Assembly: GCA_903900705.1 (NCBI GenBank)
Contig: CAIUOG010000132.1
Location: 1 to 35,138, forward strand
Source of the DNA: an uncultured Acidobacteriia bacterium
GTDB taxonomy: Bacteria; Acidobacteriota; Terriglobia; Bryobacterales; Bryobacteraceae
DNA: 35,138 nt
Direction of reading: 5' to 3'
Numbering within the stretch: position 1 is the stretch's first letter; every line of letters starts with the position of its first letter. This document shows positions 1 through 35,138 of this stretch, piece after piece. Made by a program: the position numbers and the translations under genes. Below the pieces are notes generated by a model. The model had not been told where the DNA came from and did no database searches. It saw only the letters and a program-made list of their open reading frames with translations.

Positions 1-450
1 AGTTTCCTGCGGCGCGACGGGACGGTGTGGTCGACCGATAAGGACGGGCTGATTCTGGGCCTGCTGGCGGCGGAGATTACGGCGGTGACGGGGAAAGACC
101 CGGGGCTGCATTACCGGGAATTGACGGAACAGTTTGGGACGTCATATTACACGCGCATCGATGCGCCCGCCACGCCGGAACAGAAGGCGGCGTTTAAGAA
201 GCTGACGCCCGCTTCGGTGACGGCTGGAACGCTGGCCGGGGATGCGATTACGGCGCGGCTGACGCATGCGCCGGGGAACGGGGCGGAGATCGGCGGGCTG
301 AAGGTGACGACGGGGAACGGGTGGTTCGCGGCGCGGCCTTCGGGTACGGAGAATATTTACAAGCTCTATGCGGAGAGTCTGAAGGGCCAGGCGCATCTGG
401 AGCAGATTGTGGCGGAAGCACAGCGGATTGTGACGGAATCGCTGGGGTGA
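1..450 (+). CDS. pgm: Phosphoglucomutase, C-terminal part (5' end outside window)
   Basis: This is the last 149 codons of an alpha-D-glucose phosphate-specific phosphoglucomutase, which interconverts glucose 1-phosphate and glucose 6-phosphate in the cytoplasm. The frame is open from base 1 (S-F-L-R-R-D-G), so the gene begins upstream and the GTG at 25 is an internal valine. The segment matches domain IV of the E. coli-type enzyme: a WSTDKDG stretch, [13 protein letters not shown], then STLAGD-like and [13 protein letters not shown] segments, and the phosphate-binding loop RPSGTE near the end. The stop at 448-450 is followed by a hairpin. Family assignment is firm from the domain IV signature; the catalytic serine lies in the missing part. 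Confidence 0.93.
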
Positions 451-9742: not shown

Positions 9743-11377
9743 TTACCGAACGTTTGGAACTTCCAGCACCATCCCCAAACCATCCAGCAGTGTCGAGGTA
9801 GCGCGCTGATAGCTCACAAATGCCTGCTGATAGCCGACATAGGCATTGAGCAGAGCACTTTCCGAGGCGGCCAGCTGCGTCTGTGAATCCAGCAGTTCAA
9901 AGGCGGTGATGGTGCCGAGTTCGTACTTCTGCTGCTCCGCGTCCACGTTCTTCTTTGCCAGATCGCGGGCGATGGTGGCGGCTTCGATGGTGGCGTTGGC
10001 GAGTTCGATGGAGTTCATGGCCTGGCGGACATCCTGAATCACCTGCTGCCGCACCTGACGCTCCGTGAGCTGGTCGCGAGTCTTCTGGATGAGGGCATCA
10101 GCCAGCTGAACGCGGGCGGCGGTGCTTTTGATGGGGAGCGTGAGCTGGAGCCCCGCGCCATAGGTGGGGGAATTAAAGCCGAGCACGTCCCCCAGAACGT
10201 TGGCGAGCCCGCCGGAAGTGGTGCGGGAGGTGATGCCGAGAGCGGTATTGGCGTTCACCTGATTGCCGGCAAGGCCGACGCCGGAACCCTGGATGCTGAG
10301 GTCGAGGCGCGGGGTCATCAGATTGCGCGCAACGCGGGCGTTGAGATCGTCGATGGTGATGCGGCGATGGGCGGCATCCATCTCCGGGCGGACGCGGAGG
10401 GCGGCGGCGAGTGCTTCTTCATAGGGCAGGATGCCGGCGCGGTCCGGCAGCGCGGAAGGGTCGTCACTGAGGGCGATTTCAGTCGAGCGCATTTCCGGAG
10501 TGAGATCGGCGCCCATCACGCGGCGGAGACCATCGAGCGCGGAACGGTAGGCGAACTGGGCCTGGACCAGATCACGCTTGCGGGCGGCGACCTGGGTTTC
10601 GGACTGGAAGATGTCGAGGTTGGCGAGCGCGCCGAGGTCGAGAGCCTGCTTGTCGCGATCGTAGGACTTCCGGGCAAGGGTCAGGGTCTGTTCGAGAACC
10701 TTGATGTTGTCGCGCGCGCGGATGGCATCCCAATACTGACCCGCCGCGGTGGCCACGAGGTCCGCGATATGGGCTTCGCTCTGGCGGGAGGTGATGCCGA
10801 GCTGGGTGCGGGCAATCTGCTGCGGAGCCGTGAACTGGATGCCATTGCGGTTCTGCAGCAGCGGCTGCAGGAAAGTGAAGCCGAGGGTGCCGGAGATGCT
10901 GGGGTTGAACAGGTTGAAGGCGCTGTTGGTGGAACTGCGCGAGGCGTTGAAGGTGACGCCCGCCGTTTCGCCGGTGGGCAGCAGTTGTGAGAAGCCGGCG
11001 GAAGAGTTCTGGGTCAGGCTGCTCAGAGTGGACGCGCCGGCGATCTGCGAGAACTGCGGCGAGACGGAACGCAGTGCCGTAAAGCCGAGGGTCACGGACG
11101 GATCGAACACGGCTTTGGAGGAACGAATCTGGTCGGCAACGGTATACACGTCGAGACGCGAGAGGTTGATATCGGTGGAGTTGCGCAGCACCAGTTCGAG
11201 AAAGGTCTTCAGAGTGAGATTGAGCTTACCGTCGCGGATGCGTTCGTTGATTCCTTCCACTTCACGGACGCGGACGGTCTCCGGGTGAAAGCGGTGGTCG
11301 AGCCAGGCGGGAACGGGCAGTGTTCCGGCGGGGGCAAGCGGGGCCGCGAGAGCGAGCAGCAGGAGGAGTCGGTTCAT
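9743..11377 (-). CDS. TolC-family outer membrane efflux protein
   Basis: A 544-aa secreted protein with a signal peptide (MNRLLLLLALAAPLAPAG) and the two repeated outer-membrane-efflux-protein halves rich in long helices, for example the NATIEAATIARDLAKKN and SQTQLAASESALLNAYVGY stretches near the C-terminus. Like TolC it should form a trimeric channel through the outer membrane and a helical tunnel into the periplasm. It is the last gene of the exporter operon, six bases after the permease. The N-terminal segment TFLELVLRNSTDINLSRLDVY is the usual first-helix pattern of the family. ATG 11377 is preceded by GGAGGAG-like sequence. The substrate of the system is unknown. Confidence 0.9.
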   Translation of the reverse strand: MNRLLLLLALAAPLAPAGTLPVPAWLDHRFHPETVRVREVEGINERIRDGKLNLTLKTFLELVLRNSTDINLSRLDVYTVADQIRSSKAVFDPSVTLGFTALRSVSPQFSQIAGASTLSSLTQNSSAGFSQLLPTGETAGVTFNASRSSTNSAFNLFNPSISGTLGFTFLQPLLQNRNGIQFTAPQQIARTQLGITSRQSEAHIADLVATAAGQYWDAIRARDNIKVLEQTLTLARKSYDRDKQALDLGALANLDIFQSETQVAARKRDLVQAQFAYRSALDGLRRVMGADLTPEMRSTEIALSDDPSALPDRAGILPYEEALAAALRVRPEMDAAHRRITIDDLNARVARNLMTPRLDLSIQGSGVGLAGNQVNANTALGITSRTTSGGLANVLGDVLGFNSPTYGAGLQLTLPIKSTAARVQLADALIQKTRDQLTERQVRQQVIQDVRQAMNSIELANATIEAATIARDLAKKNVDAEQQKYELGTITAFELLDSQTQLAASESALLNAYVGYQQAFVSYQRATSTLLDGLGMVLEVPNVR

Positions 11378-11383
11378 GGCGTC

Positions 11384-12631
11384 CTATTCGTAGCGCAGGG
11401 CTTCAATGGGGTCGATTCGGGAGGCTTTTCTTGCCGGATAAATACCAAACACCACACCCACGGCCACAGAGACGCCAAAGGCGATGCCGATGGAGGAGGG
11501 CGTGACGATGGTGTTCCATTCCGCGGCGCGGGCAATCAGCCAGGAGAGGAAGTAGCCGAAGGCAATGCCGACGACGCCACCGCCGATGGAAATGAGAATG
11601 GATTCAAAAAGAAACTGACGGACGATATCGCCGCGGCGCGCACCAATCGACCGGCGAATGCCGATTTCGCGCGTTCTTTCGAGCACCGTGGCGAGGACGA
11701 TATTCATAATGCCAATGCCACCGACCAGAAGCGAAATGGCGGCGATGGCAACCATGACATAGGTGAAGATGGACTGCGAACGCTGTTGTTCGGCGAGGAG
11801 CTCGGCCGGAATGGTGACGACGAAATCGGCAACCTTGTGGTGCGTGGAACTCAGGATGGCGGAGACGACTTTGGCGGCCACCACACTGTCGGCGCCCTGT
11901 TTCAGACGGATATCGACGCCGTCCAGTTCGTCTTTGAAGCTGCCGCCGCGATCAAAGAAGCGGTACTGGAAGGTGTTCAGGGGGATGTAGATGACGAAGT
12001 TGGGATCCTGCGACTGGGCGGTGCCGGAGCCGGAGCTGACCTGATTCTTCAATACGCCGACGACCTGCAGCCAGGTGTCATTCACCTTGACGAATTTGTG
12101 CATGGCCGAGCCATAGCCGAGAATGGCCACTTTGGCGCGCTCGCCGAGGATGCAGACGGCGGCGCTGGCATCGTCACTCGCGGGGTCAAAAGGCGCGCCT
12201 TCGGCAAACTTCCAGTTGTGGATGGCGGAGTAAGCGGGGCGGACGCCGTAGAGCTCCGGCACGTCCGGCGCGGGCTTGGGGAACACCTGCGCGGGATGCA
12301 GAGTGCGGCGGGCGGAGATGAGCTCGAGTTCATCCACATTGGCCTGTAAAACACGCACATCGCGTTCAGTAAGGCCGGGGGAGGAACGGCGGCGCTGCTG
12401 CAATTCCTGATTGCTGGTGGCCGGACGGGCTTCGATCAGGAGGTTTCTGACGCCCAGCGTTTCAATGAAGCGCAGAGATTCCTCGCGCGCGCCCGCGCCA
12501 ATGGCGAGCATGCCGATGACAGCGCCCACGCCGAAGATGATGCCAAGCGCGGTGAGCACGGTGCGCGTCTTTTGCGCCCAGAGATTGGTCGCGGCCAGGG
12601 TGAGATCTGAGAGGTAGCGGGTGAGCAGCAT
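11384..12631 (-). CDS. MacB-like ABC transporter permease
   Basis: A 415-aa inner-membrane protein with the MacB topology: first helix at about residues 24-45, a periplasmic domain (MacB_PCD type) to about 280, then three helices in the FtsX domain. The FtsX signature is clear (GGIGIMNIVLATVLERTREIG, then IRRSIGARRGDI and the closing YPARKASRIDPIEAL). MacB-type permeases act by mechanotransmission, driving substrate through the adaptor and TolC rather than across the inner membrane. No nucleotide-binding domain is fused and none is encoded in the operon, so an ATPase must be supplied from elsewhere. ATG 12631 overlaps the upstream stop by one base (TAATG). Confidence 0.92.
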   Translation of the reverse strand: MLLTRYLSDLTLAATNLWAQKTRTVLTALGIIFGVGAVIGMLAIGAGAREESLRFIETLGVRNLLIEARPATSNQELQQRRRSSPGLTERDVRVLQANVDELELISARRTLHPAQVFPKPAPDVPELYGVRPAYSAIHNWKFAEGAPFDPASDDASAAVCILGERAKVAILGYGSAMHKFVKVNDTWLQVVGVLKNQVSSGSGTAQSQDPNFVIYIPLNTFQYRFFDRGGSFKDELDGVDIRLKQGADSVVAAKVVSAILSSTHHKVADFVVTIPAELLAEQQRSQSIFTYVMVAIAAISLLVGGIGIMNIVLATVLERTREIGIRRSIGARRGDIVRQFLFESILISIGGGVVGIAFGYFLSWLIARAAEWNTIVTPSSIGIAFGVSVAVGVVFGIYPARKASRIDPIEALRYE

Positions 12632-13965
12632 TATTTCGGCAGGGCCTGCATGGCGCCGGATGCGCTCTTCTTTTTGGCGGCTTCGGTGGGATTCGAAAGA
12701 GCCACGAACTGACCTTCGTCCAGCCCGGTGATGACGACCTTCATTTCGTTGCGGCGGACGAGCGTGACATCCTTCGCGACGAAGCCGCCTGGGGTCTGGA
12801 CGTAGACGAAGGTTCGACCGTCGCTCTCAAACAGAGCCTGCGCGGGCAGGGAGAGCACGCCTTTCATCTGGTCTGTGGTGATGACGATGTTGGAGCTCAT
12901 GCCGGGGCGCAGTTCCACGGAGGGATCGTCGAGCGCGATGCGGCATTCAAAGCTGCGGTCCCACGCGGGGCCGCTCGCGCCGCCCATTTCGCGGACTTTG
13001 CCGTGATACGCATGGCCGGGGACGGCGACGATGCGGAGGATGGTGCTCTGGCCGAGCGAGATGTGGCCGCGGTCGAGTTCGCTGATTTTGGCGGCCACTT
13101 CCCAGTTCTTCAGGTCGGGAATCTGGGCGAACGCCATGCCGGGACGCACGGTGTCGCCCAACTGGTAGGCGGGCAGCGTCATGCCGAAGAAGGTCTGGTT
13201 CTGATTGGTGTTCTGGAGGATGGAGACGTAGCCATCGCGATGCGCCCGGAGCGTCATGGCATCGATGTTGAGCTGCGCCGTCTTCGCCTGGGATTCGGCC
13301 TTGAGACGGGCGGCTTCCTGGATGGCGATAGCGGCATCGTCTGTGGCCTTGCGGTTGGTGAGGTTGTGCTGCAGCTGCACGAGGTGATCTTTGGCCGCTT
13401 CGAGCGCGATGGTGTTCTGGCGCGCCGTGAGGCTGGGCAGGAGCGGGTTCTTGCGGACGTCGAGTTCGGCCAGCCGGACGTCGGTGGCGGCTTTTTGCAG
13501 CGCGTAGCGGTCTTCTTCGGCCTGCGCTTCTTTCATGGCTTTGGCCTGGATGAGGCGCTGCCCGGTCTCGGCAAGATCGGCCTGAGCCTCGCGAAGTTTA
13601 TACTCCTGCTCGGTGGTGTCGAATTCAGCGACAATCTCGCCGGCTTTCACTGGTTCACCGCTATCGAGCAGAGTGGTCAGGTGCATGTCGAGGCCGCCGG
13701 TCATGGGAGCGGTCAGCATCTCCGGATTGCCGCCGCGCAGTTCGCCGCGGGCCGAGACGTCGAGAGTGACATCGCCGCGCACCACCTTCGCCACCGGGAT
13801 GATGTCCTTCTTCACCCCTGTGATGTCACTCCAGGCGCGCATGCCGTAGAAGACACCGAGGGCGACCAGCGAGGACACAGACAGCAGAATCACACCGGCG
13901 CGCAGCCACCGGCGGCGGGGCGTGTTCAAAACAGGCCGGGAGGGAGAAACGGAGACGGTGCTCAT
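12631..13965 (-). CDS. Periplasmic adaptor (HlyD/MacA-like), third in operon
   Basis: A 444-aa membrane-anchored adaptor with a short cytoplasmic head, one transmembrane helix (about residues 25-47, GVILLSVSSLVALGVFYGM), half of a lipoyl-like domain (VKAGEIVAEFDTTEQEYKL), a long coiled-coil hairpin (about 125-230, Ala/Gln/Glu-rich), the second half lipoyl region and a beta-barrel with LRPGMSSNIVI. The C-terminus (LVRRNEMKVVITGLDEGQFVALSNP) is the membrane-proximal domain seen in MacA-type adaptors. It should link the permease to the TolC-like channel. ATG 13965 overlaps the previous gene's stop (ATGA). It is similar in plan to the next two genes, so these probably arose by duplication. Confidence 0.88.
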   Translation of the reverse strand: MSTVSVSPSRPVLNTPRRRWLRAGVILLSVSSLVALGVFYGMRAWSDITGVKKDIIPVAKVVRGDVTLDVSARGELRGGNPEMLTAPMTGGLDMHLTTLLDSGEPVKAGEIVAEFDTTEQEYKLREAQADLAETGQRLIQAKAMKEAQAEEDRYALQKAATDVRLAELDVRKNPLLPSLTARQNTIALEAAKDHLVQLQHNLTNRKATDDAAIAIQEAARLKAESQAKTAQLNIDAMTLRAHRDGYVSILQNTNQNQTFFGMTLPAYQLGDTVRPGMAFAQIPDLKNWEVAAKISELDRGHISLGQSTILRIVAVPGHAYHGKVREMGGASGPAWDRSFECRIALDDPSVELRPGMSSNIVITTDQMKGVLSLPAQALFESDGRTFVYVQTPGGFVAKDVTLVRRNEMKVVITGLDEGQFVALSNPTEAAKKKSASGAMQALPK

Positions 13966-15233
13966 TTCGTTTCCGGTCCGGTTTTGGATTTCGGCGCATC
14001 ATCTTTCGGCGGTTCCGACAGCGCCACCAGCGTGCCTCCCGCGATGCCCCGCACCGCCACCTCATCCGGATTCTTTGCGATGATCTGCACGGGCGTCGGC
14101 ACGTAGCGGCCGCCGGTCTTCACGTAAACGGCGGGCTTGCCACCGAGCGTGAAAAGGGCTTTCGAGGGGATGCTGATGGCGTCCGGAATGCGGTCTTCCA
14201 CCAGATCCGCGCCGGCGTTCATGCCGGGGCGCATGCGGGGGTCGGGTGGTTCCAGGCGGGCGTAGGCGCGAAAGCTGCGGGTGGGTGGCCACTCGTTGAA
14301 GCTCTGTTCGGTGAGCGGCGTGATGCTGGTGATTTTCGCCGGCATCACCTTTTCCGGGAAGGCGTCCACACGCACCAGAACGCTGGTGCCGACCTCGATT
14401 TTGCCGCGATCGACCTCTTCGATTTTGCTCTCCATCTCGAGGGTGCCGAGGTCAGGGATTTCCGCCAGAACCTGCCCTGCGGCGGCGTGATCGCCCACTT
14501 TGAAGGGTTGCGCGTTCATCCAGCCCTGGGAGTAGTTGGGCATGTAGTTGATGACGCCGTTGAGCGGGCTGCGGAGTTCCATGAGCGCGAGGTGGCTTTT
14601 GGTGAGCTCCATCTGAGTCTTCGCGCGGTCACGCGCCCGCTCGAGCGCGGCAATGCGGGCTTCCGCCACACGTTTGTGCGTCACCATGGCGGCCTTCTGC
14701 ACGCGGAGACGCTCTTCGGCGAGGCTGAGGTCGATGCGGCTTTCCTCGCCCTGGATCTGGCTCATGATGGCCTGTTTGGAAGCTTCGAGGCGGGCGCGTT
14801 CCACATTGAAGGTGGAAGTGGCGAGGTCGAGCTGGTCCTGATCTTCGGTAATGCGGGATTGCGCGAGGGCCTGATCGAGGGTGGCCTGCACCTGGTTGAC
14901 GGTGGAGTTGCGTTCGTCGAGTTCCTGGCGGGTGCGACTGGGGTCGAAACGGATGACGACTTGCCCCTTTTTCACTTCACTGCCGGGGGCGGCCTGCTCC
15001 ACAATCTGGAGATCGGTGACATCAAGGGGCGCGGAGAGTTGCTGCGAATTGTGGGCGACCAACTGACCGCGCGTGCGGACGAGAACGAGGAACTCGCCGC
15101 GGCGGGCGGAGGCGAGAGGCAGGTCCGCCAGTTGTTTGGTCTTGCGGAGTTCCCGGACGGCGAAACCGGAGCCCGCCAGGACCAGGAGAACGATGGCGGC
15201 GCGAAGGCTGCCGGTGAGGCGGCGGGAGTTCAA
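13962..15233 (-). CDS. Periplasmic adaptor (HlyD/MacA-like), second in operon
   Basis: A 423-aa adaptor with one N-terminal helix (about residues 9-26, LRAAIVLLVLAGSGFAV), a lipoyl-like half (GSEVKKGQVVIRFDPSRTRQ), a coiled-coil hairpin of about 130 residues, and a barrel domain with MRPGMNAGADLV. The C-terminal part has YVPTPVQIIAKNPDEVAVRG, as in MacA. The start is TTG 15233: it overlaps the stop of the first adaptor (TTGA) and has GGAGG eight bases upstream, which decides this start over later codons. The N-terminal helix is retained rather than cleaved, as expected for this family. Confidence 0.87.
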   Translation of the reverse strand: MNSRRLTGSLRAAIVLLVLAGSGFAVRELRKTKQLADLPLASARRGEFLVLVRTRGQLVAHNSQQLSAPLDVTDLQIVEQAAPGSEVKKGQVVIRFDPSRTRQELDERNSTVNQVQATLDQALAQSRITEDQDQLDLATSTFNVERARLEASKQAIMSQIQGEESRIDLSLAEERLRVQKAAMVTHKRVAEARIAALERARDRAKTQMELTKSHLALMELRSPLNGVINYMPNYSQGWMNAQPFKVGDHAAAGQVLAEIPDLGTLEMESKIEEVDRGKIEVGTSVLVRVDAFPEKVMPAKITSITPLTEQSFNEWPPTRSFRAYARLEPPDPRMRPGMNAGADLVEDRIPDAISIPSKALFTLGGKPAVYVKTGGRYVPTPVQIIAKNPDEVAVRGIAGGTLVALSEPPKDDAPKSKTGPETK

Positions 15234-16216
15234 TTGGAGCCTCCGACAGAAATATCCACGGCGGCGGAGAGATCGGGCAGCAGGCGCGGGTCTTTCTGAT
15301 CGAGCCGGAAGCGGGCGACGAAGGTCTTGACGGTGATGCCGAGGGGCGAGGTCGCGACCGGGCTGGCGGAACTGAAGTGGGCGGTGAAGACGCGGTCGGG
15401 GTAAGCGTCCAGGTGCACCAGGGCTTTTGCGCCGGGCACGAGGACCGCGCCATCGGGCTCACCCACGGCGACTTCCACTTCCATATTTTCGGGGTCGAAC
15501 AGCTTCAGCAGCGGGCTGCCGGGCCAGATCTGATCGCCTTCCTGCGCATGGCCCATCGAGTTATTTCGATAAACATTCTGCAGTGCGACCATGCCGCGGA
15601 TAGGGGCTTTGACCGAGAGCTTTTCGGAGTTACGGACCTGGCGCTCCACGGCGACTTTCTGGCGCTCACGCTGCAGTTCGAGCACCCGCAGTTCCGCCCG
15701 GTCCGCCGTTTCGCGGGCCTTGATGGAGCGCAGCAGACTGGCCACGTGGATGCGGGCATCTTCGAGGCGGACCCGGTTCTTTTCCTGATCGATGGCGCTC
15801 AGAACCGGGCCTTTGCGGCTTTCGATCTCCGCTTTCTGCAGATCGGCGTTTGCCTGGGCGACATCGGAGACGCGCTTTTCGGCGTTACCGAGGTGAGCGG
15901 CTTTCAGGAGTTCCACCTGGTGATCGAGGCTGTCCAGCGCGTTTTCGGTGTCGCGCAGGATCTTTTGTTCATTGGCGCGGTCAAAGCTGGCGAGCATGGC
16001 GCCCTCGTTGACGATCGCGCCGTTTTCCACCAGCGTGGCGAGCGTGAGGCTTCCGCCCAGGCCTTCAATGCGGGGGACCAGGACGGTGAATGACTGCACC
16101 GCGCGAATTACGCCGGTGGCACGCACGGAGGCGCGGGGAGGCGCGGGCTTCAGGGAAGGATCCGCAGCCGGAAGGATCGGGACGAACAGGAACAGGAATA
16201 GGGCCGTTAAGCGCAC
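15230..16216 (-). CDS. Secreted HlyD-like adaptor, first in operon
   Basis: A 328-aa adaptor, shorter than the two downstream. It begins with a cleavable-looking signal peptide (MRLTALFLFLFVPILPAADPS), then a lipoyl-like half (VENGAIVNEGAMLASFDRAN), a coiled-coil hairpin (about 95-195), VKAPIRGMVALQNVYRNNSMG, and a truncated barrel that ends soon after LPDLSAAVDISVG. It therefore lacks the membrane-proximal domain of MacA-type adaptors. The start is GTG 16216 with no obvious ribosome site; it is chosen because it opens the signal peptide. As the first gene of the exporter operon its promoter should lie in 16217-16310, where I see no convincing consensus. Confidence 0.82.
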   Translation of the reverse strand: MRLTALFLFLFVPILPAADPSLKPAPPRASVRATGVIRAVQSFTVLVPRIEGLGGSLTLATLVENGAIVNEGAMLASFDRANEQKILRDTENALDSLDHQVELLKAAHLGNAEKRVSDVAQANADLQKAEIESRKGPVLSAIDQEKNRVRLEDARIHVASLLRSIKARETADRAELRVLELQRERQKVAVERQVRNSEKLSVKAPIRGMVALQNVYRNNSMGHAQEGDQIWPGSPLLKLFDPENMEVEVAVGEPDGAVLVPGAKALVHLDAYPDRVFTAHFSSASPVATSPLGITVKTFVARFRLDQKDPRLLPDLSAAVDISVGGSN

Positions 16217-16742: not shown

Positions 16743-17708
16743 TCAGGACTTTATCACTGGCACCTGGTACGGGAGTACTATTACCCCGGCCAGCTTCAGG
16801 GCAATCAGAAGGGCGCCCACGGCCGGACTGTGGGCCGGCGGCGCGGAGACGGCGTGGCCTTCCAGTTCGATGAGCATGCGGAAACGTTCGAGGACAGTGG
16901 TGCTGTTGAAAACACCTCCAATCCAGGCGACCCGCAGCGGTTTCTCCGGCAGGTCCCGCGTGTTCCACAACTGGCGGCGCACGGTACCGGCCAGCATGGC
17001 GAGTTGCATAGCGGCTCGCTGCAGAATATCGCCCGCCACGGGGTCGCCTTCCTGGGCGATCTGGTCCACCAGCCGGGCGAGGCCGGCGACCCGGGAGCGC
17101 GGCCACTCCGGGGTGTAAAAAAGATGCAGGGTCTGGTTGGCGTTGGCCGTGCCGGTGGCTTCGAGCAGAGCGGGGGTGAGCGCGGTCACCGGGCCCCAGC
17201 CCTCATGTTCGGCGAGCGCGGCGCGCAGAGCCTGGCGAACCACGTCGAACCCGCCGCCCTCGTCGCCGAAGATGTGGCCCCAGCCGCCGGCGCGCGCGGA
17301 TTCGGATTTCCCGTTCTCCCCAAAAGCGATGGAACCGGTACCCGCCACGACGATGATGCCCGGTTCGCCCATGGTGGCGCCGGCGAGCGCGATCCTGCCG
17401 TCGTGAGTGACCAGCAAATGCCCGGCGTCGAACACTTCGTGCAGAAGGCCGGCTTTATCTTCCGGGCCTCCGCTCATGCCGAGGCATGCGCCGCGGAAGC
17501 GGGGTTTGCCGGTGGGCATGCCGGCGCGCGAGGCCGCCTGAAGAACGCATTCGCCCATCACGCGCAGGAACTTCGCGCGGCTTTCCGCAGCGGAGACATG
17601 ATTGCAGGGTCCGGCGGTGGCCCAGCCGATCACCTTACCCGTCTCATCGGAAATCACGGCGACGGTGCTCGATTGCCCGCCATCCACTCCCAGAAAATAG
17701 TCGCTCAT
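16743..17708 (-). CDS. BadF/BcrA-type ATPase, N-acetylglucosamine kinase-like
   Basis: A 321-aa protein of the ASKHA (actin-like ATPase) superfamily. Visible motifs are the phosphate 1 loop GVDGGQSST (residues 8-16), THDG followed by the phosphate 2 loop VAGTGSIAFG, and GGWGHIFGDEGGGFDVV, an arrangement typical of eukaryote-type N-acetylglucosamine kinases and the BadF family. It most likely phosphorylates an amino sugar in the cytoplasm. The frame is open for 81 codons upstream, but ATG 17708 begins the phosphate loop region and overlaps the stop of the glycosyltransferase gene (ATGA). A link to recycling of cell-wall or surface sugars is an inference from the neighbouring glycosyltransferase. 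Confidence 0.87.
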   Translation of the reverse strand: MSDYFLGVDGGQSSTVAVISDETGKVIGWATAGPCNHVSAAESRAKFLRVMGECVLQAASRAGMPTGKPRFRGACLGMSGGPEDKAGLLHEVFDAGHLLVTHDGRIALAGATMGEPGIIVVAGTGSIAFGENGKSESARAGGWGHIFGDEGGGFDVVRQALRAALAEHEGWGPVTALTPALLEATGTANANQTLHLFYTPEWPRSRVAGLARLVDQIAQEGDPVAGDILQRAAMQLAMLAGTVRRQLWNTRDLPEKPLRVAWIGGVFNSTTVLERFRMLIELEGHAVSAPPAHSPAVGALLIALKLAGVIVLPYQVPVIKS

Positions 17709-19888
17709 TGAATTTGGTAGATTTTGCCCATGCCGACGTCGGCAACTTCGCGCAGTCCCCAGCGGGCGGGATCGGCGCGCATGTCCGCGGCGGACATGTA
17801 GTTGTTGGCGATCAGCAGGTAGTCGACGCCCAGAGATTTGATTGTACGGCTTGCCAGACGGCGCAAATCGTTGCCGGGGGGCAGATGGATGGTTTCCAGC
17901 TGCGCGTCCTTTTCGAGGCCGGAACCTTCGAGGTGCATGCGGACGGGCCATTGATCGTGCCCGCAGAAGAGTTCCACGCGGTCAATTTTTGCGGGCGTGT
18001 CGCCGAAAAAGACGTCGATGTACTGGCCGGGACGGAGGACTTCCCAGGCGCGCCAGCGGGTGACCGGGTTGTGGTCGAAGGCGAAATGGATATCCCAGGG
18101 GAAGGGGTTCGATTCGGCGTGAACCGGGTTGACCTCGTCATCGCCGCTGTAGAAGCGGGCTTCCCCGATGTTCCAGACGTCACCGCCGGCGGCGCCGGTC
18201 TGCACGATGCGCAGGTGGCTCATCACACGGGGGCTGAAGTGGAAACGGTGCTCCCAGAGCGGCTGGAAATCCTGCACGAGCGGGGTCTGCAGAATGTCTT
18301 CAATCCTCTCGCCATCGGCCGAATAGTAGTTCACCATCACGGAACGGCGGATATAGGATTCGGGCAGCGGGTCATTGCTCCAGAGAGTCTTATCTTCGGG
18401 AATCACATCGTTGATTTTGCGCGCGACGTTGTAGCCCCACCAGCGTCGTTCGAGGAAGCTTATGGGCGAATCGATCTGAAGCGCGACCTGCCAGGGCATG
18501 TGTTCGATGTGCCAGTCGCCGGCGGGCGAGTGGTATTTCGGGATGATGGTGGGCCAGGCAAACAGCAGGGAGGCGGCGACGAGGGAGACAAGAAGGGGCG
18601 CGGAGAACTCCAGTACGTAGGCCATGCCGAGCGAGAGGAACGGCAGTGCGGGAATCAGGAAGCGGCCGCCGATATTGGCGGGGAAGGTGGCGAGGAAGAA
18701 GGCGGCGGGAAGCAGGCAGCGGCGGCCGCGGGGATGTCGCAGGGCGAGCAAAGCGACCGGCGCGAGCAGGAAGACCGGGCCGATGTGGCCACCGGTCTGG
18801 CCGGTGACGGTGACGATCCAGAAAAGCGGCTTCAGGCTGGGGAGCTGGTAGGTGCGCAGCACTTCCCGCCAGAAGTTTTCGAGCGTGATGTGGACGAAGG
18901 GGTTGGGGAACCACCGGTTGAAGAAGGGCGAGAAGGGGTTCCAGAGCCAGATCCAGTTCTTGATAAGCCAGGGCAGCCCGATGGCGGCGGAGGCGAGGGA
19001 TGAGGTGACGATGCGCGGGAAGGAACCGAGGTTCCGGTGCGTGATGAGGAGCACGGCGATCATGTAGAGGACCGCGACGAAGCCCGTGTATTTGATGGCG
19101 AAACAGAAGCCGGCGAGCAGGCCGATGGGGATCATCAGGCGGTCGTCATCACGGCGCTCCCGCCAGATTTCGAGCAGGTAGAAGAGAGTGAAAGCGGTGG
19201 TGGCGAGCGCCACGTCCGTGTAGGCGCTGACGCCGTCGATTCCCACGACGGGCGAGAGATAGACCAGCATGGCGGCGGTGACGCCCGCGCGCGGATGGCC
19301 GATGCGGCGGCAGTAGGAGAGGATCAGCAGTGGCAGCGCGAAGAGAAAACTGGTGTGGACGGTGGCCGCGGCGGAGTGACGCCCGAAGGCGAAGGCGAAC
19401 AGGAAGAGCATTTCCACGCCCTGTGAGAGGCTGGCGTAGAGGTTGGTGGTGATGCGGACGAAGCCGTGTTCACGCAGGTAGCGGGCCACCAGACCGAGGT
19501 GATAACTGGAACCGTCCGGGCTGATTTCGGGCGCGAGGCAGTTGGAAAGATAGAGCAGGGCGTAAATCGCAAAGGAAGCGGCGAACAGGTATTTCCAGAA
19601 GTTCGGGAGGGGCGGGAGGGGCTCCCGGCGTTTTTGCAGGAGAGTGAGCCACGCGGCGGGCGCCAGCAGCAGAAGGCCCAGCGCGAGAAATACCATGGGC
19701 CGCGCCAGATGGATGACGCAGAGGCCAAAGACCGTCATGCTGAGCAGCGGCGCTCCCGTCACGGCGGCCAGCAGTTCCTGCTCGAAGCGTTTGAAGTGCA
19801 GCCCCAGCAGCCGGAACAGCAGCGTGCCACAGGCCCAGCAGACAGAGACCGTGAAGGCCGCGGCCAGCACAATCACGAAGACGTTCAC
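17705..19888 (-). CDS. GT-C membrane glycosyltransferase with lectin-like C-terminal domain
   Basis: A 727-aa protein with about 11-13 transmembrane helices in its first 450 residues and a soluble C-terminal half. The first large periplasmic loop has SPDGSSYHLGLVARYLREHGF, the place where GT39/ArnT-type enzymes carry the catalytic acidic residue, so transfer of a sugar from a polyprenyl-phosphate donor is the likely reaction. The tail (about residues 560-680) contains NPFPWDIHFAFDHNPVTRWRAW and GQYIDVFFG, a pattern like F5/8 type C (discoidin) domains. GTG 19888 overlaps the NUDIX stop (GTGA), with GGAG upstream. A second gene of the same architecture lies at 29486-31705. Confidence 0.8.
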   Translation of the reverse strand: MNVFVIVLAAAFTVSVCWACGTLLFRLLGLHFKRFEQELLAAVTGAPLLSMTVFGLCVIHLARPMVFLALGLLLLAPAAWLTLLQKRREPLPPLPNFWKYLFAASFAIYALLYLSNCLAPEISPDGSSYHLGLVARYLREHGFVRITTNLYASLSQGVEMLFLFAFAFGRHSAAATVHTSFLFALPLLILSYCRRIGHPRAGVTAAMLVYLSPVVGIDGVSAYTDVALATTAFTLFYLLEIWRERRDDDRLMIPIGLLAGFCFAIKYTGFVAVLYMIAVLLITHRNLGSFPRIVTSSLASAAIGLPWLIKNWIWLWNPFSPFFNRWFPNPFVHITLENFWREVLRTYQLPSLKPLFWIVTVTGQTGGHIGPVFLLAPVALLALRHPRGRRCLLPAAFFLATFPANIGGRFLIPALPFLSLGMAYVLEFSAPLLVSLVAASLLFAWPTIIPKYHSPAGDWHIEHMPWQVALQIDSPISFLERRWWGYNVARKINDVIPEDKTLWSNDPLPESYIRRSVMVNYYSADGERIEDILQTPLVQDFQPLWEHRFHFSPRVMSHLRIVQTGAAGGDVWNIGEARFYSGDDEVNPVHAESNPFPWDIHFAFDHNPVTRWRAWEVLRPGQYIDVFFGDTPAKIDRVELFCGHDQWPVRMHLEGSGLEKDAQLETIHLPPGNDLRRLASRTIKSLGVDYLLIANNYMSAADMRADPARWGLREVADVGMGKIYQIQ

Positions 19889-28920: not shown

Positions 28921-29489
28921 GACTCAGGCTGGGCCTGGCGACCACGCCGCTCCTGTTAGCCGGATGCGCTCAACAGCCCGTCTTTTCCGTGCCGCCGCAG
29001 CGCACCGCGCAGGAGTTCCGTGTGCAGGATCTGTTCCGCGCCGGGGCGCCCACACAACCGCCGGGGATTCGATTGGTGAGTGGCATTCGGCCAACCGGGA
29101 TCGGCCTCGACTGGACCTGGACCACGGACCACGCGGCACTGCGGCTTGCGCTCGATCCGCAGTCCAACGCCCGGTGGGACCTCGATGCAAGAATCACCTG
29201 CGCCGGAGTGGTTCTGGACAAAACGGGGCCACAACACCTCACGTTTGTGGTGAACGGGGAGACGGTTGGCAAAGCAACGCTCGACGCCGCGCGAATCTGG
29301 AACCTGCGTTTTCCGGTGGAACCGGCCCTGCTTAGAGCCGCCGGCTCCGGGGAGGGCGTACTGGTGGAGATCCTGATCGACCGGACTCTGCCGGATGCGG
29401 GCGGGCCGCCTTTCGGCGTATTGCTGCACGAGATCGGGTTCACGCATGAGCTGTCCGGCGCGGATCAGAAACACGGGGTGGCACAGTGA
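28917..29489 (+). CDS. Lipoprotein with beta-sandwich-like domain
   Basis: A 190-aa putative lipoprotein. MRLRLGLATTPLLLAGC gives a signal peptide and lipobox (LLAGC), with Cys17 as the lipidated residue. The body has a LTFVVNGETVGKATL stretch and a LVEILIDRTLPDAG strand pattern, like the beta-sandwich domains often attached to membrane glycosyltransferases. I do not recognise a named family. ATG 28917 overlaps the hydrolase stop (ATGA); an upstream ATG at 28905 adds only four residues and is less likely. The stop overlaps the start of the glycosyltransferase gene (GTGA), so the two are probably made together and may work together at the membrane. Confidence 0.78.
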   Translation: MRLRLGLATTPLLLAGCAQQPVFSVPPQRTAQEFRVQDLFRAGAPTQPPGIRLVSGIRPTGIGLDWTWTTDHAALRLALDPQSNARWDLDARITCAGVVLDKTGPQHLTFVVNGETVGKATLDAARIWNLRFPVEPALLRAAGSGEGVLVEILIDRTLPDAGGPPFGVLLHEIGFTHELSGADQKHGVAQ

Positions 29490-31705
29490 CTGCGTGGCGG
29501 GTTTTGCTGGGCGCGGCTTTCGTTTTCGCGGTCTGCCTCGCGGCCGGACGGCTGCTGTTCCAATGGTTAGCCGTCCGTCTGCGCGGCGGCGAACGAGTCT
29601 ACCTCGAATTTCTCACCGGAGCGGCCCTGGTGAGCACTGCGATGTTCGCGCTTGCCAGTGTGCACCTGGTCTACACTTCCGTGCTGGTGGCGGCGGGCGG
29701 CCTGTTGCCGCTGTGCGCGTGGTGGTTCCGGCGACCGGCGGGCGCGGTCTCCTCTGCCGGCGCGAGATTGACGCCTCTGTGGCGGACTCTGTTCGTGCTT
29801 ACCTGGCTGACCTTTGGCGCGCTCTATCTGATCACGGCGATGACGCCGGAGACGAGCCCGGACGGCGTGAGCTATCACGTGGGCCTGATCAGCCGTTACT
29901 ACCAGCACCGCGGCTTCTACTTTGTCGACAGCATGTTCGGCGGCCTGGCGGAAGGCGTCGAGATGCTGTTTCTGCCCGCTTTCGCGCTGGGCCGCCATTC
30001 GGCGACGGCGGTGGTCCACCTGCTCTTCTTACTCACGCTGCCGTTCGGAATGCTCGCGTACGGCAGGCGTATCGGCCTGCCCGCGGCCGGAGTGGTGGGT
30101 TCGCTGCTGTTCTATCTCGCGCCGGTGGTGGGGCGGGACGGAACCATTGCTTATGTGGACGTCGCCACCGCCGCGGTGGTATTCGGAGTCTACCTCTGCC
30201 TCGAAATCTGGCGCAGGGAAAGCCTGGAAGCGATGCTGGTTCCGGCCGGGTTGCTGGCGGGTTTCAGCTACGCCTGCAAGCTGACCGCGTCGCCGATCGC
30301 GGTGTTTCTGTTTATTTATATGGTCGCGGTGACGCTCGCGCGGCGGGACGGGTTCCCAACGCTCTGGCGTCGCGCCGGAGTCACCACGTTGCCTGCAATC
30401 CTGGTGGCGGGTCCGTGGATCGTGCGAAATGCCATCCTGTTCCACAATCCGTTTTTCCCGCTTTTTAACAACTGGTTCCCGAACCCGCATCTTTACCCCA
30501 TCATCGAAAGTGAACTGCGGCGACTGATGGCGCAAATGGGCGGCGTACCGCTGGCAAAGCTGCCCTGGGAAGCCACTGTCGGCGGCAAACTGGCGGGGGT
30601 CATCGGACCGGTTTTCCTGCTGGCTCCTCTCGCGCTGCTCTCGGTCCGCCACAGCGCGGGGCGACTGCTCCTGCTCGCATTTCTGCCGCTGTTTCTGCCC
30701 TTCTTCTCGAATAACGGGGGACGGTTTCTGATCCCCTCGCTCCCGTTTCTCGCGATGGCGCTGGCAGTCGGCATCGTCTCCATTCCCCGGCTGGGTCCAG
30801 GGTTGGCCGTGATGGTTGTGCTGGCGCATGCGGTACTTTCGTGGCCGGATCTGATGGACCGCTGGTCGCCGGGCTTTCAGTGGCGGATTGACAATGCGGA
30901 CTGGCGGGCGGCGCTGCGCATCACCCCGGAAAACGTATATCTGCGGGAACACTGGCGGGACTACCTGCCCGGCCTGATGCTGGACCGTCTGGTGGCGCCC
31001 GGAGAAGTGGTGTTCTCGCCCGCGATGGGTCAACTGGCCTACCACCATCGCGAGTTGCTGGGAACATATGAATCGTCGAAAGCGCGCCTCGCGTTTCTGT
31101 ACTTCATTACGCCGCTGGAGCAGCCGCTGGCGAACACTTTCCACCGGGAAATCCACTTTCCCGCAGTGAAGACGGACCGGGTACGCCTGGTGACGCGCAG
31201 CACTAACGACAACGATCTTCGGATTGAAGAACTGCGGTTTGCGCTGGGCAAGAGCGAACTTCCCCGGGAGGCAGCCTGGCGCATCACCGCTTCAGCAAAC
31301 CCGTGGGAGACGCCGCTCGCGTTCGACAACGGGCCACTTTCCTTCTGGACGTCCGGCCGGACCGTGACGCCCGGCCTGTGGCTGGAAACCGATTTCGGAC
31401 ACATGGCGGAACTGGACCGGCTTCTCGTGGCGCAGAGTGAGGACCAGCGCTGGACATCTCTGGGGGTGGAGGCGATGGAAGACGGGAAATGGACCCGGCT
31501 GCACTCGCGCGAATCCGATACGGTGGAGCCGGCGCGCGCCTCCGTTCGCATGGAAGCCCGCGATGAACTGAAGCGAATGGGCATCCGCTGGATCCTGATT
31601 CCGGATGGCGCGTACGGGGCGGATGATCTGCTCGGCAACCCGGCAATCTGGGGCGTTACGCAGGTGGCTGTGGCCAATGGCTTCCGGCTCTGGAAACTCA
31701 ACTGA
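29486..31705 (+). CDS. GT-C membrane glycosyltransferase with lectin-like C-terminal domain (second copy)
   Basis: A 739-aa protein with the same plan as the one at 17705-19888: about 11-13 helices in the first 450 residues and a soluble tail. The shared features are the N-terminal AGRLLFQWLAVRLRGGERVYLEFLTGAAL-type helix-loop, the first periplasmic loop SPDGVSYHVGLISRYYQHRGF, IGPVFLLAPLALLSVRH, and NNGGRFLIPSLPFLAMAL. The tail has ASANPWETPLAFDNGPLSFW and LWLETDFG, again like F5/8 type C domains. It should transfer a sugar from a lipid-linked donor on the periplasmic side. GTG 29486 overlaps the lipoprotein stop (GTGA). The two copies differ widely, so this is an old duplication. Confidence 0.8.
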   Translation: MTAWRVLLGAAFVFAVCLAAGRLLFQWLAVRLRGGERVYLEFLTGAALVSTAMFALASVHLVYTSVLVAAGGLLPLCAWWFRRPAGAVSSAGARLTPLWRTLFVLTWLTFGALYLITAMTPETSPDGVSYHVGLISRYYQHRGFYFVDSMFGGLAEGVEMLFLPAFALGRHSATAVVHLLFLLTLPFGMLAYGRRIGLPAAGVVGSLLFYLAPVVGRDGTIAYVDVATAAVVFGVYLCLEIWRRESLEAMLVPAGLLAGFSYACKLTASPIAVFLFIYMVAVTLARRDGFPTLWRRAGVTTLPAILVAGPWIVRNAILFHNPFFPLFNNWFPNPHLYPIIESELRRLMAQMGGVPLAKLPWEATVGGKLAGVIGPVFLLAPLALLSVRHSAGRLLLLAFLPLFLPFFSNNGGRFLIPSLPFLAMALAVGIVSIPRLGPGLAVMVVLAHAVLSWPDLMDRWSPGFQWRIDNADWRAALRITPENVYLREHWRDYLPGLMLDRLVAPGEVVFSPAMGQLAYHHRELLGTYESSKARLAFLYFITPLEQPLANTFHREIHFPAVKTDRVRLVTRSTNDNDLRIEELRFALGKSELPREAAWRITASANPWETPLAFDNGPLSFWTSGRTVTPGLWLETDFGHMAELDRLLVAQSEDQRWTSLGVEAMEDGKWTRLHSRESDTVEPARASVRMEARDELKRMGIRWILIPDGAYGADDLLGNPAIWGVTQVAVANGFRLWKLN

Positions 31706-31785
31706 AACGTGACAGGTGCGTTAGAATCAAGCTTTCAGCGGGGCGGAACTACAGACTTCGAAACAGGCGCCACTTTTACTTGCAT
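31706..31785 (+). promoter_or_regulatory. Leader and possible promoter of the sensor gene
   Basis: TAGAAT (31722-31727) is a good -10 hexamer, but I see no -35 at a proper distance. No ribosome site precedes ATG 31786 (TTTTACTTGCAT). No terminator for the glycosyltransferase gene is visible, so read-through is possible. Confidence 0.3.
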
Positions 31786-34700
31786 ATGAGACGCTCATTA
31801 CGGGTTGGAGCGGGGAACCGGACAACGCTCGTTCCCGTTCTGTTGTGCCTGTTCACCCTGTTTTCGGGTGGCGATAGGGCGTTTGGACAACAGTACGCGT
31901 TTGAATATTTCGGGGTGGAACAGGGCCTCACGAATCTGGCCGTCAAAACTCTGTATCAGGACCGCACCGGCTTCATCTGGGTGGTGACGGAAAAGGGCGT
32001 CTTCCGCTACGAGGGCGTGCGCTTCCGGGAGTTCACACCCGCGCAGGGGCTGCCGCCGAGCGTGACCGCGTCCATTGGGGAGGCGCCCGATGGCTCCGTG
32101 CTGGTGGGCAATCAGGCGGGGTTGTTCCGACTGCGGGGCGAACGCTTTGAGAAGCTGCCGCTCCCTGCCGGTAAGCGCATCAACGGCTACAACAGCGTTT
32201 TGCTGGATGGCAACCGCACGTGGCTGGGTACCGACGTGGGTCTGCAGGTTGCGGCCATCCGTCCTGATGGAGGCATAACGATCCAGCCGGGTCCCGCGCT
32301 CCCGCCGGGTATTGCGAAAGATATCCAAAGCATCTTCGTCGAAAAGGTGGCGGGCGGCCACGACCGGCTCTGGTGGGGTTGCGGCAACGCGCTGTGTAAA
32401 TCAGAAAACGGACAGTTCGCTGTTCTGGGCGAGGAAAGCGGCCTGAAGGCCTCGCACGTCCAGGCGATCCTGGCGGACCGGGAAGGCAATCTCTGGATTG
32501 CGCAGAACCGGCGACTGCTGCAGTTGAAGCCGGGTGCCGCGCGGTTTGAAGAGGCTGATCCGCAGCTTCCTCCGGTGGGTCCCGGCAGCAGTCCGCGAAT
32601 TGATTCCGATGGACGTTTGCTGGTTCCCACGACCGGCGGTCTGGCGGTGCGGATCGGCAACCGCTTTCATGTGCAGGGGCGAATGTCCGGACTGCTGCCG
32701 CCGGTGTATTCGGTGCTGCAGGATCGGGAAGGTTCCGTCTGGCTGGGCCTGGCCGGGCGTGGTCTGGCGAAATGGCTCGGCTATAGCGAATGGGAAAGCT
32801 TCACGGCACAGAGCGGGCTGACCGGCGAAACCGTTTATGAAATTCTGCCGCAGCGTGATGGTTCCATCTGGGTGGGGACCGAAGCGGGATTCTTTCACGG
32901 CAAGCGCGGCGAGTTTGGCTGGGACTGGCAGCAGCAGAAAGCCATCGGACAGGCGCCCGTTCACGCCGTGCAGCAGGCGGCGGACGGCGCGTTGTGGCTT
33001 GGCACGGATGGCCGGGGAGTGGCGCGCTTCGACACAAAGTCAGGCAACGCGCGCTGGTTCGGACGCGATGCCGGTCTGGCCGCCAATTCCCCCAATGCCG
33101 TGCTGATCGACAAAGATCAGACAGTCTGGGCCGGCACCGAAAACGGCATCTTCGTGAGCGCGCGGGGCAGCGGGAAGTTCCGGCATATGGAAGGCGGGCC
33201 GCTGGAACGCTGCTGGGCGTTGATCGAAACAGCCAATGGCGATATCTGGGCCGGCGCAAAAGACGGCCTGTGGCAGTTCTCAGGCGGCAAATGGCGGCAA
33301 CTTACCCGGCAGCAGGGGTTGCGGAGTGAAGCCGTGGTTTCGCTCGCGGCAGATCCCAACGGGGCCATCTGGATCGGGTATCGTCTGGCCGGAACCATCA
33401 CCCGGCTGACTTTCCGCGATGGGCAGCCCGAGTTTGCGCATTATGATCCCCACGCGGATCACCCCGCCGATATCACCTACTTTCTCGGTTTTGACTCGAA
33501 AAACCGACTCTGGGCGGGGACTAATCTGGGCGTGCAGGTACTTGACCAGGCCTCCGGCCGCTGGGACCGGTTCGATCATCACGACGGCCTGATCTGGGAC
33601 GACTGCGATCTGCACGCGTTTGCCTCGGAGGCCGATGGCCATGTCTGGATCGGGACCAGCGGCGGGCTTTCCCGTTTCCTGCCGCGCATGAATCCCGTGC
33701 AACCCGGCCCCCCGCGGACCGTGTTCACCAGCGTGCTGGCCGGAAAGAACGAGATGGACCCGGCGCACAGCATGACGCTCGAATATACCTCCGATCCGCT
33801 GCTGGTCCGTTTCACCGCGCTGCGATTCGGGCGTGATCGCGATCTGGTCTTCCGGTACCGCCTGACACCGTTGTTCACCCAGTGGAAAGAGACGATCACA
33901 CGCGATCTGCAGTTCCCCGCCCTGCCCCCGGGCAACTACCGTCTGGAGGTGGAAGCGCGGGATTCCAAAAGCGCCTGGAGTGAAACCCCCGCCGTATTCG
34001 CGTTTGTGGTGCTGGCGCCCTGGTGGCGGACCTGGTGGTTCATGGGTGGCTGCATCATGGGCACCGCCGTCCTGGCGGGCTTCTTCTTCCGCCGCCGCAG
34101 CGCGCAGGAAGAAGCCGTACGGCACGCGCTCGAAAACGCGGTTGCCGAACGCACGCGCGAACTTTCCCACCAATACCGGCACGATGTGCTCACCGGCCTT
34201 CCCAACCGCCTGCTGTTCGGCGAACGACTGGCTCGGGAGTGCCAGAATGCGGACCGGAACGACAGCCGGGTGGCAGTACTGTTCATCGACCTGGACCGCT
34301 TCAAGCGCATCAACGACACCTGGGGCCACCAGATTGGCGACCTGTTCCTGAAGCAGATTTCCGAACGGCTGCGCGCCGGGCTGCGCGATTACGAGACCAT
34401 CGCCCGCATCGGCGGCGACGAGTTCATTGTGCTGATCCCCGGGCTGAGTGACAAGGCGGAAGCCAGGGCGCGTGGCTGGGATCTGCTGCGCGCGCTTGAA
34501 GCCCCTTTCCGGATTGAAGGCAAAAACGTGTTCGCCACCATGAGCGTGGGCATTGCGGTCTTCCCGGACGACGAACGGGATCCCAGCGCTCTGATGGCGG
34601 CGGCCGACGCGGCCATGTACCGGGCCAAGGGCGCCGGCAAGAACCAGGTGCAGCTGTTTGAAGCGGGCATGACGGAGGCGGCGTCCCGTCCGCAGAACAT

Positions 34701-34920
34701 CGAAGACCGGCTGCGCGAGGCCCTGAAAACCGGCGGCTTCCGGCTGCGGTATCAGCCCCAATACACCCTCGCCGGGAAGCTTGACGGCTTTGAGGCTTTG
34801 CTCCGGGTGGATGGCTATGAAAAGGAACTGCCGCCGTCGGAATTTATCCCCATTGCGGAGGAAAGCGGCCTGATCGTGGAACTCGGCGCATGGGTGCTGA
34901 AAGAGGCCTGCCGCCAGGTG
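31786..34920 (+). CDS. Propeller-Y_Y_Y sensor with GGDEF and truncated EAL domain
   Basis: The frame is open from ATG 31786 to the window end (1045 codons to 34920). It has a signal peptide (MRRSLRV, then a hydrophobic stretch to about residue 36), then at least ten repeats ending in W-[IVLA]-G motifs (for example SIWVGTEAG, ALWLGTDG, TVWAGTENG, HVWIGTSGG), which form the two-component-regulator propeller type of periplasmic sensor. A Y_Y_Y domain follows (FRYRLTPLFTQW), then one transmembrane helix at about 750-770, a short coiled coil, and a GGDEF domain with GGDEF at 876-880, so it should make cyclic di-GMP. The product-inhibition RxxD site reads R-D-Y-E. An EAL domain starts with EALLR at about 1003-1007 but is cut after about 75 residues (see the feature at 34921). 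Confidence 0.88.
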
Positions 34921-35138
34921 ATTCTGACTCTCGCCGCTGTGGCGGGGTATTGCGCGATGGCGCAAACACCCCAGGGGGCGCCCGCGGGCCGGGGCGCGCA
35001 ACCGCCGGTTGAAATAGACAAAACAGCGCCGACGGAAGACTTCAAACCTTCCTCCCTGAACCAGCCGGGCAAACAGTACCCCGAGGTGAACTCGCAGAGG
35101 CGCGTCCGCACCCAGTTGCGGGCGCCGAACGCGCAGAC
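34921..35138 (+). CDS. N-terminal fragment of a secreted esterase, fused in frame to the EAL remnant
   Basis: From 34921 the reading frame of the sensor continues but its character changes at once. The sequence becomes a hydrophobic signal-peptide core (ILTLAAVAGYCAMAQ), a Gly/Ala/Gln/Pro linker (PQGAPAGRGAQPPVE), then DFKPSSLNQPGKQYPEVNS and VRTQLRAP. This is the start pattern of secreted acidobacterial esterases with an N-terminal beta-sandwich domain and an enterochelin-esterase-like fold. The charged N-terminal residues of a signal peptide are missing unless GTG 34918 is used as start. The gene runs off the window. Assignment to that esterase group is from memory of the family and not from a search. 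Confidence 0.6.
   Translation, partial: MLTLAAVAGYCAMAQTPQGAPAGRGAQPPVEIDKTAPTEDFKPSSLNQPGKQYPEVNSQRRVRTQLRAPNAQ

Follow-up and report, generated by a model that had tools for sequence, protein, structure and literature searches.

A reading frame running from a truncated EAL domain into an esterase at a contig end is probably a contig-tail artefact

Known faults of metagenome assemblies come closest to the locus analysed here. A review of metagenome curation describes local assembly errors for which there is not a single read in perfect agreement, and it cautions that chimeric open reading frames may result when a sequence is composed from related strains (PMC7111523). For viral metagenomes, a study of contig extension reports mis-assemblies that arise when a contig end is lengthened with reads that stem from a different region of the same genome (PMC7953547).

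The stretch of DNA we analysed, referred to as the window, is 35138 bases long and corresponds to the entire contig C132 of a 6.1 Mb draft genome. This genome consists of 179 contigs, is rated 99.87% complete and appears to be a metagenome bin. At the right end of the window a single reading frame leads from a membrane sensor with a partial EAL domain into an esterase. We think it probable that this fused frame is a contig-tail artefact, of the assembly or of the library, and that another contig, C147, follows C132 in the genome.

The sensor gene and the junction in the window

The sensor gene (31786-34921, plus strand), which is cut at the junction, was delimited by the listing of open reading frames and by Pfam. 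Its frame opens at a TTG at 31780 (ATG at 31786) and is free of stop codons to the last codon of the window. Pfam assigns to it Reg_prop propeller repeats, a Y_Y_Y domain, a GGDEF domain (residues 801-956) and the start of an EAL domain. The EAL match comprises residues 976-1047, which correspond to profile positions 2-75 of 236, and the EAL part ends with EACRQV at 34920. This agrees with the initial annotation, according to which the domain is normal up to EACRQV, about 75 residues in. The full-length EAL domain expected of a working EAL phosphodiesterase is therefore not found in the window, where the profile is covered from position 2 to 75 of 236.

Past 34920 the sensor frame reads ILTLAAVAGYCAMAQTPQ, which is the N-terminal part of an esterase (34922-35138, plus strand) that runs off the contig end. 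The codons following the V at 34920 read ILTLAAVAGYCAMAQTPQG... and match the esterase encoded on C147 from its residue 5. Thus, the earlier statement that an esterase N-terminus is read from the next codon on, without a stop, is borne out by the match to the C147 esterase, whereas the signal peptide named in the same statement was judged by eye and is putative. The window contains esterase residues 5-76 only, the start codon and the first residues being missing, and a Pfam scan of the window returned no match to PF00756. The window copy does not, in other words, combine the own start, the signal peptide and the esterase domain of a secreted esterase. The contig, and with it the window, ends 217 bases past the junction.

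Elsewhere in the window, the frames at 17705-19888 (minus strand) and 29486-31705 (plus strand) encode large membrane proteins that are alike in length and look like paralogues; motifs such as SPDG.SYH.GL..RY are common to both by eye. The minus strand carries at 9743-16216 a run of genes that by eye are of the efflux type; their products resemble an outer-membrane channel, an ABC permease and, in three cases, membrane-fusion proteins.

The arrangement on contig C147

Besides C132 itself, a query of the genome with window positions 34600-35138 recovers a single further contig, C147, in two stretches. Bases 1-85 of C147 are identical to window positions 34837-34921 (plus strand), and its bases 893-1111 align at 99% with 34920-35138, the last 219 bases of the window, with two differences. 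The comparison places the junction at the two bases GA (34920-34921, plus strand), which are common to both sides, and 807 bases that are present on C147 are absent from the window tail. On C147, EACRQV continues through the remainder of the EAL domain (208 aa, stop at 627), which Pfam matches to profile positions 49-236 (E 1.8e-57). After this stop there is a spacer of about 250 bases and then, as the next gene downstream, the esterase, a frame of 413 aa with its ATG at 882, an in-frame stop 72 bases upstream of that ATG and a match to the Pfam family Esterase, PF00756 (E 2.2e-16). Thus, the same assembly carries an intact version, matching both sides of the window join (C147:1-85 and 893-1111), that contradicts this join. 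The initial annotation had argued that neither protein makes sense when fused, and C147 indeed provides both the EAL remainder with a stop and a whole, separate esterase.

Do the two contigs represent two loci? The sensor part (31780-34836) has its sole full copy in the genome on C132; its matches elsewhere are limited to 152 bases at 73% and 42 bases at 83%. Window positions 34837-35138 occur only on C132 and C147, and the whole esterase only on C147. Because the sensor part occurs once, the two contigs do not represent two loci but lie side by side in colinear order, and a second sensor locus is ruled out.

The two differences between the window tail and C147 are single-base differences, at 35002 and 35007. 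One of them gives Q-P-P for Q-A-P, and the same residue occurs in a relative (L050), which counts against simple sequencing errors. Since the tail variants are absent from C147, the tail looks like another haplotype.

Sensor and esterase genes in related genomes

A conserved fusion was sought with a 151-aa junction peptide, in which the join lies after residue 79. The search covered 41 genomes, including 19 of the genus (the 18 genomes of this set other than our own are already among the 41). Counting the own genome in each case, the peptide finds a match in 27 of 41 genomes at E 0.001 and in 17 of the 19 genus genomes at E 1e-15. Only the window, however, covers both halves of the peptide; a conserved fused homologue, which the initial annotation had named, together with reads across the junction, as a sign of a real fusion, was encountered in none of the 41 genomes apart from the window itself. 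Across these genomes, matches on the EAL side reach residue 103 of 151 at most, and matches on the esterase side begin at residue 75 at the earliest. Some EAL matches run past the join, and the one inspected (L035) is an ordinary EAL domain. Esterase matches that start before the join do so at residue 75 in G018 and, when realigned, at 73 in L034 and 64 in L052; in L052 the stretch before the join lies directly after another esterase copy, and an EAL match was not found there.

For the comparison of the intact genes, eight sensor orthologues of the same genus were used (L030-L033 and L035-L038). Five further loci (L049-L053) were taken from the 80 that a contig scan of the genomes gave, and the high matches on G018:C74, a sensor orthologue, and G016:C313, an esterase, were left out. 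Seven of the eight sensor orthologues align with the EAL part of C147 over at least 200 of its 208 residues, at 67-83% identity, and the alignment with the eighth (L030) covers 123 residues before its contig ends. Esterase relatives at 80-85% identity are found in six loci, L034, L039, L040 and L041 of the same genus as well as L049 and L050; by their contig numbers and positions, L039 seems to be the same record as L049, and L050 the same as G006. The C147 esterase aligns from Met 1 in L034, L040, L041 and L050 and only from residue 12 in L039 and L049. In the three loci inspected for it, an in-frame stop lies upstream of the esterase ATG, at 15 bases in L050, 57 in L034 and 78 in L040. In the comparison with related genomes that had been proposed at the outset, the sensor and esterase orthologues of the genus that were inspected are separate genes. 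As far as these sequences go, sensor and esterase are normally encoded separately, and this genome is no exception.

The same alignments bear on the reverse possibility, namely that C147 is the chimera and the window shows the true order. C147 starts 85 bases upstream of the junction, as such a reading might have it, but its EAL part agrees with the seven same-genus orthologues and its esterase with L034, L040, L041 and L050 from Met 1. On this orthologue evidence we reject the reading, to which we give hardly any credence.

A functional EAL-esterase fusion is very unlikely as well. In its strongest form, that of a working protein conserved by selection, we regard it as close to excluded. The frame is open across the join, but a join would be in frame about one time in three by chance and is no evidence of selection. 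Moreover, the EAL domain is cut at 75 of 236, the search of the 41 genomes shows no fused homologue except the window, and the EAL remainder and the whole esterase are present in the same genome, on C147.

Conserved adjacency of the two genes finds no support in the genomes compared. Sensor and esterase are on different contigs in G006, G016 and G018, and in L031, L036, L037 and L038 the 357-957 bases available downstream of the sensor stop contain no match to the esterase. This lack of support for a conserved adjacency neither helps nor hurts the interpretation as an artefact. Separately, a 758-aa open frame at G000:C11:21459-23531 has two sets of esterase matches and looks like it contains two esterase domains.

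Contig ends and the probable origin of the join

We surveyed 143 of the 358 contig ends of the assembly (81 5' and 62 3' ends), using 1500 bases of each, or 1001 bases in the case of the 3' end of C147. Pairs with less than 88% identity, with E values above 1e-5 or on one contig were dropped. In ten pairs the overlap is identical and exactly 141 bases long, and such overlaps are the mark of de Bruijn assembly with a word length of 141. The largest default word of MEGAHIT is 141, and the assembler used here was presumably MEGAHIT-like; k141 contig titles are present in other metagenome genomes. Four other pairs overlap over 324-462 bases, gap-free, with 5-15 mismatches. The left end of the window (1-324, no strand assigned) is among them: it pairs with bases 1-324 of C79 reversed, 309 of 324 bases being identical and the remaining 15 substituted without gaps. 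In the single stop-free forward frame, 2 of 108 residues differ. The differences look like strain variation, and C79 is probably the left neighbour of C132. Overlaps of both kinds, those of 141 bases and those with SNPs, are what one would expect when short reads from mixed strains are assembled.

The survey also returned ten exact matches of 34-140 bases, all but one of them terminal on both sides, as well as C80/C88, a pair that looks like a repeat and has a one-place gap, and a second, shifted match between C14 and C88. Finally, the 5' ends of C127 and C12 form a forked overlap of 174 bases at 99.4%, situated 445 bases inside C12, beyond which the tails differ; this fork may reflect a repeat or a further defective contig tail.

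C132/C147 is the only colinear overlap in the survey that is broken by a large gap. Its identical runs are 85, 80, 4 and 131 bases long, all shorter than 141, and in this respect the pair resembles the SNP-bearing overlaps. No 141-base word is therefore common to the C132 tail and C147, and the two contigs were left unjoined.

If the contig tail is defective and the fused frame an artefact, the true order would be that of C147: the sensor (GGDEF-EAL) gene, its stop, the spacer and a separate esterase gene. In a short-read metagenome assembly of mixed strains, C132 would have been ended by a path that jumped 807 bases and carried another esterase allele, whose link to the sensor may go back to a chimeric molecule or an error of local assembly. 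The jump would date from the preparation of the library or the assembly rather than from the cell, read support for the tail should be low, and the join was probably carried by a read or a library molecule. A misassembly driven by repeats was considered and ruled out, since the two bases common to both sides of the join are too few for such an error to explain it. The short homology also makes a pure assembler error less likely, and the separate haplotype does the same for a pure library error confined to a single strain; mixed strains allow both.

The initial annotation had left the choice between a deletion in the genome and a join created by the assembly close to the end of a contig. This pair of options is supported, and with a junction 217 bases from the end it is the artefact that we favour. 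A possible though clearly less probable explanation is that a minor strain of the same species has in fact lost the 807 bases, so that its sensor gene runs into the esterase gene downstream. It is consistent with the strain variation in the assembly, seen in the C79 overlap (15 of 324 bases) and in three other SNP-bearing overlaps. The tail has two SNPs of its own, which a real deletion in a minor strain and a chimera of mixed strains would show alike, and the 2-base homology at the join fits end-joining and, equally, chance. Against a real deletion stand the intact arrangement on C147, the existence of the join sequence only as a 217-base dead end at a contig tip and the lack of any other colinear overlap with a large gap among the 143 of 358 ends. 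A deletion of this kind would cut the EAL domain of the GGDEF sensor short and deprive the esterase of its start and its normal export signal, and would thus amount to a double loss-of-function allele. That a minor strain really has the deletion and has kept the allele for a changed second-messenger output, from dual GGDEF-EAL to GGDEF-only with an esterase tail, strikes us as highly improbable.

On the contig-tail reading that we prefer, the locus serves as a warning that a frame which stays open across the tip of a contig can enter a gene list as a false fusion protein. Here, it was exposed by the neighbouring contig of the same assembly. A gain in contig order results as well, C132 being next to C147, with C79 as the probable neighbour on the left.

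Compared with membrane sensors of the Reg_prop/Y_Y_Y/GGDEF/EAL type, the sensor has the same domains by Pfam, but the window copy lacks EAL profile positions 76-236, and the EAL remainder is on C147. Compared with the putative esterase family PF00756, the C147 gene is a match (E 2.2e-16), whereas the window holds residues 5-76 without a start codon. Unlike the local assembly errors and strain-variant contig ends in metagenome-assembled genomes described in PMC7111523, the present case consists of one clean 807-base omission with a 2-base homology and no repeat-driven join. With those errors it shares the position at a contig terminus, the overlap with the next contig, the strain variation and the possibly chimeric open reading frame.
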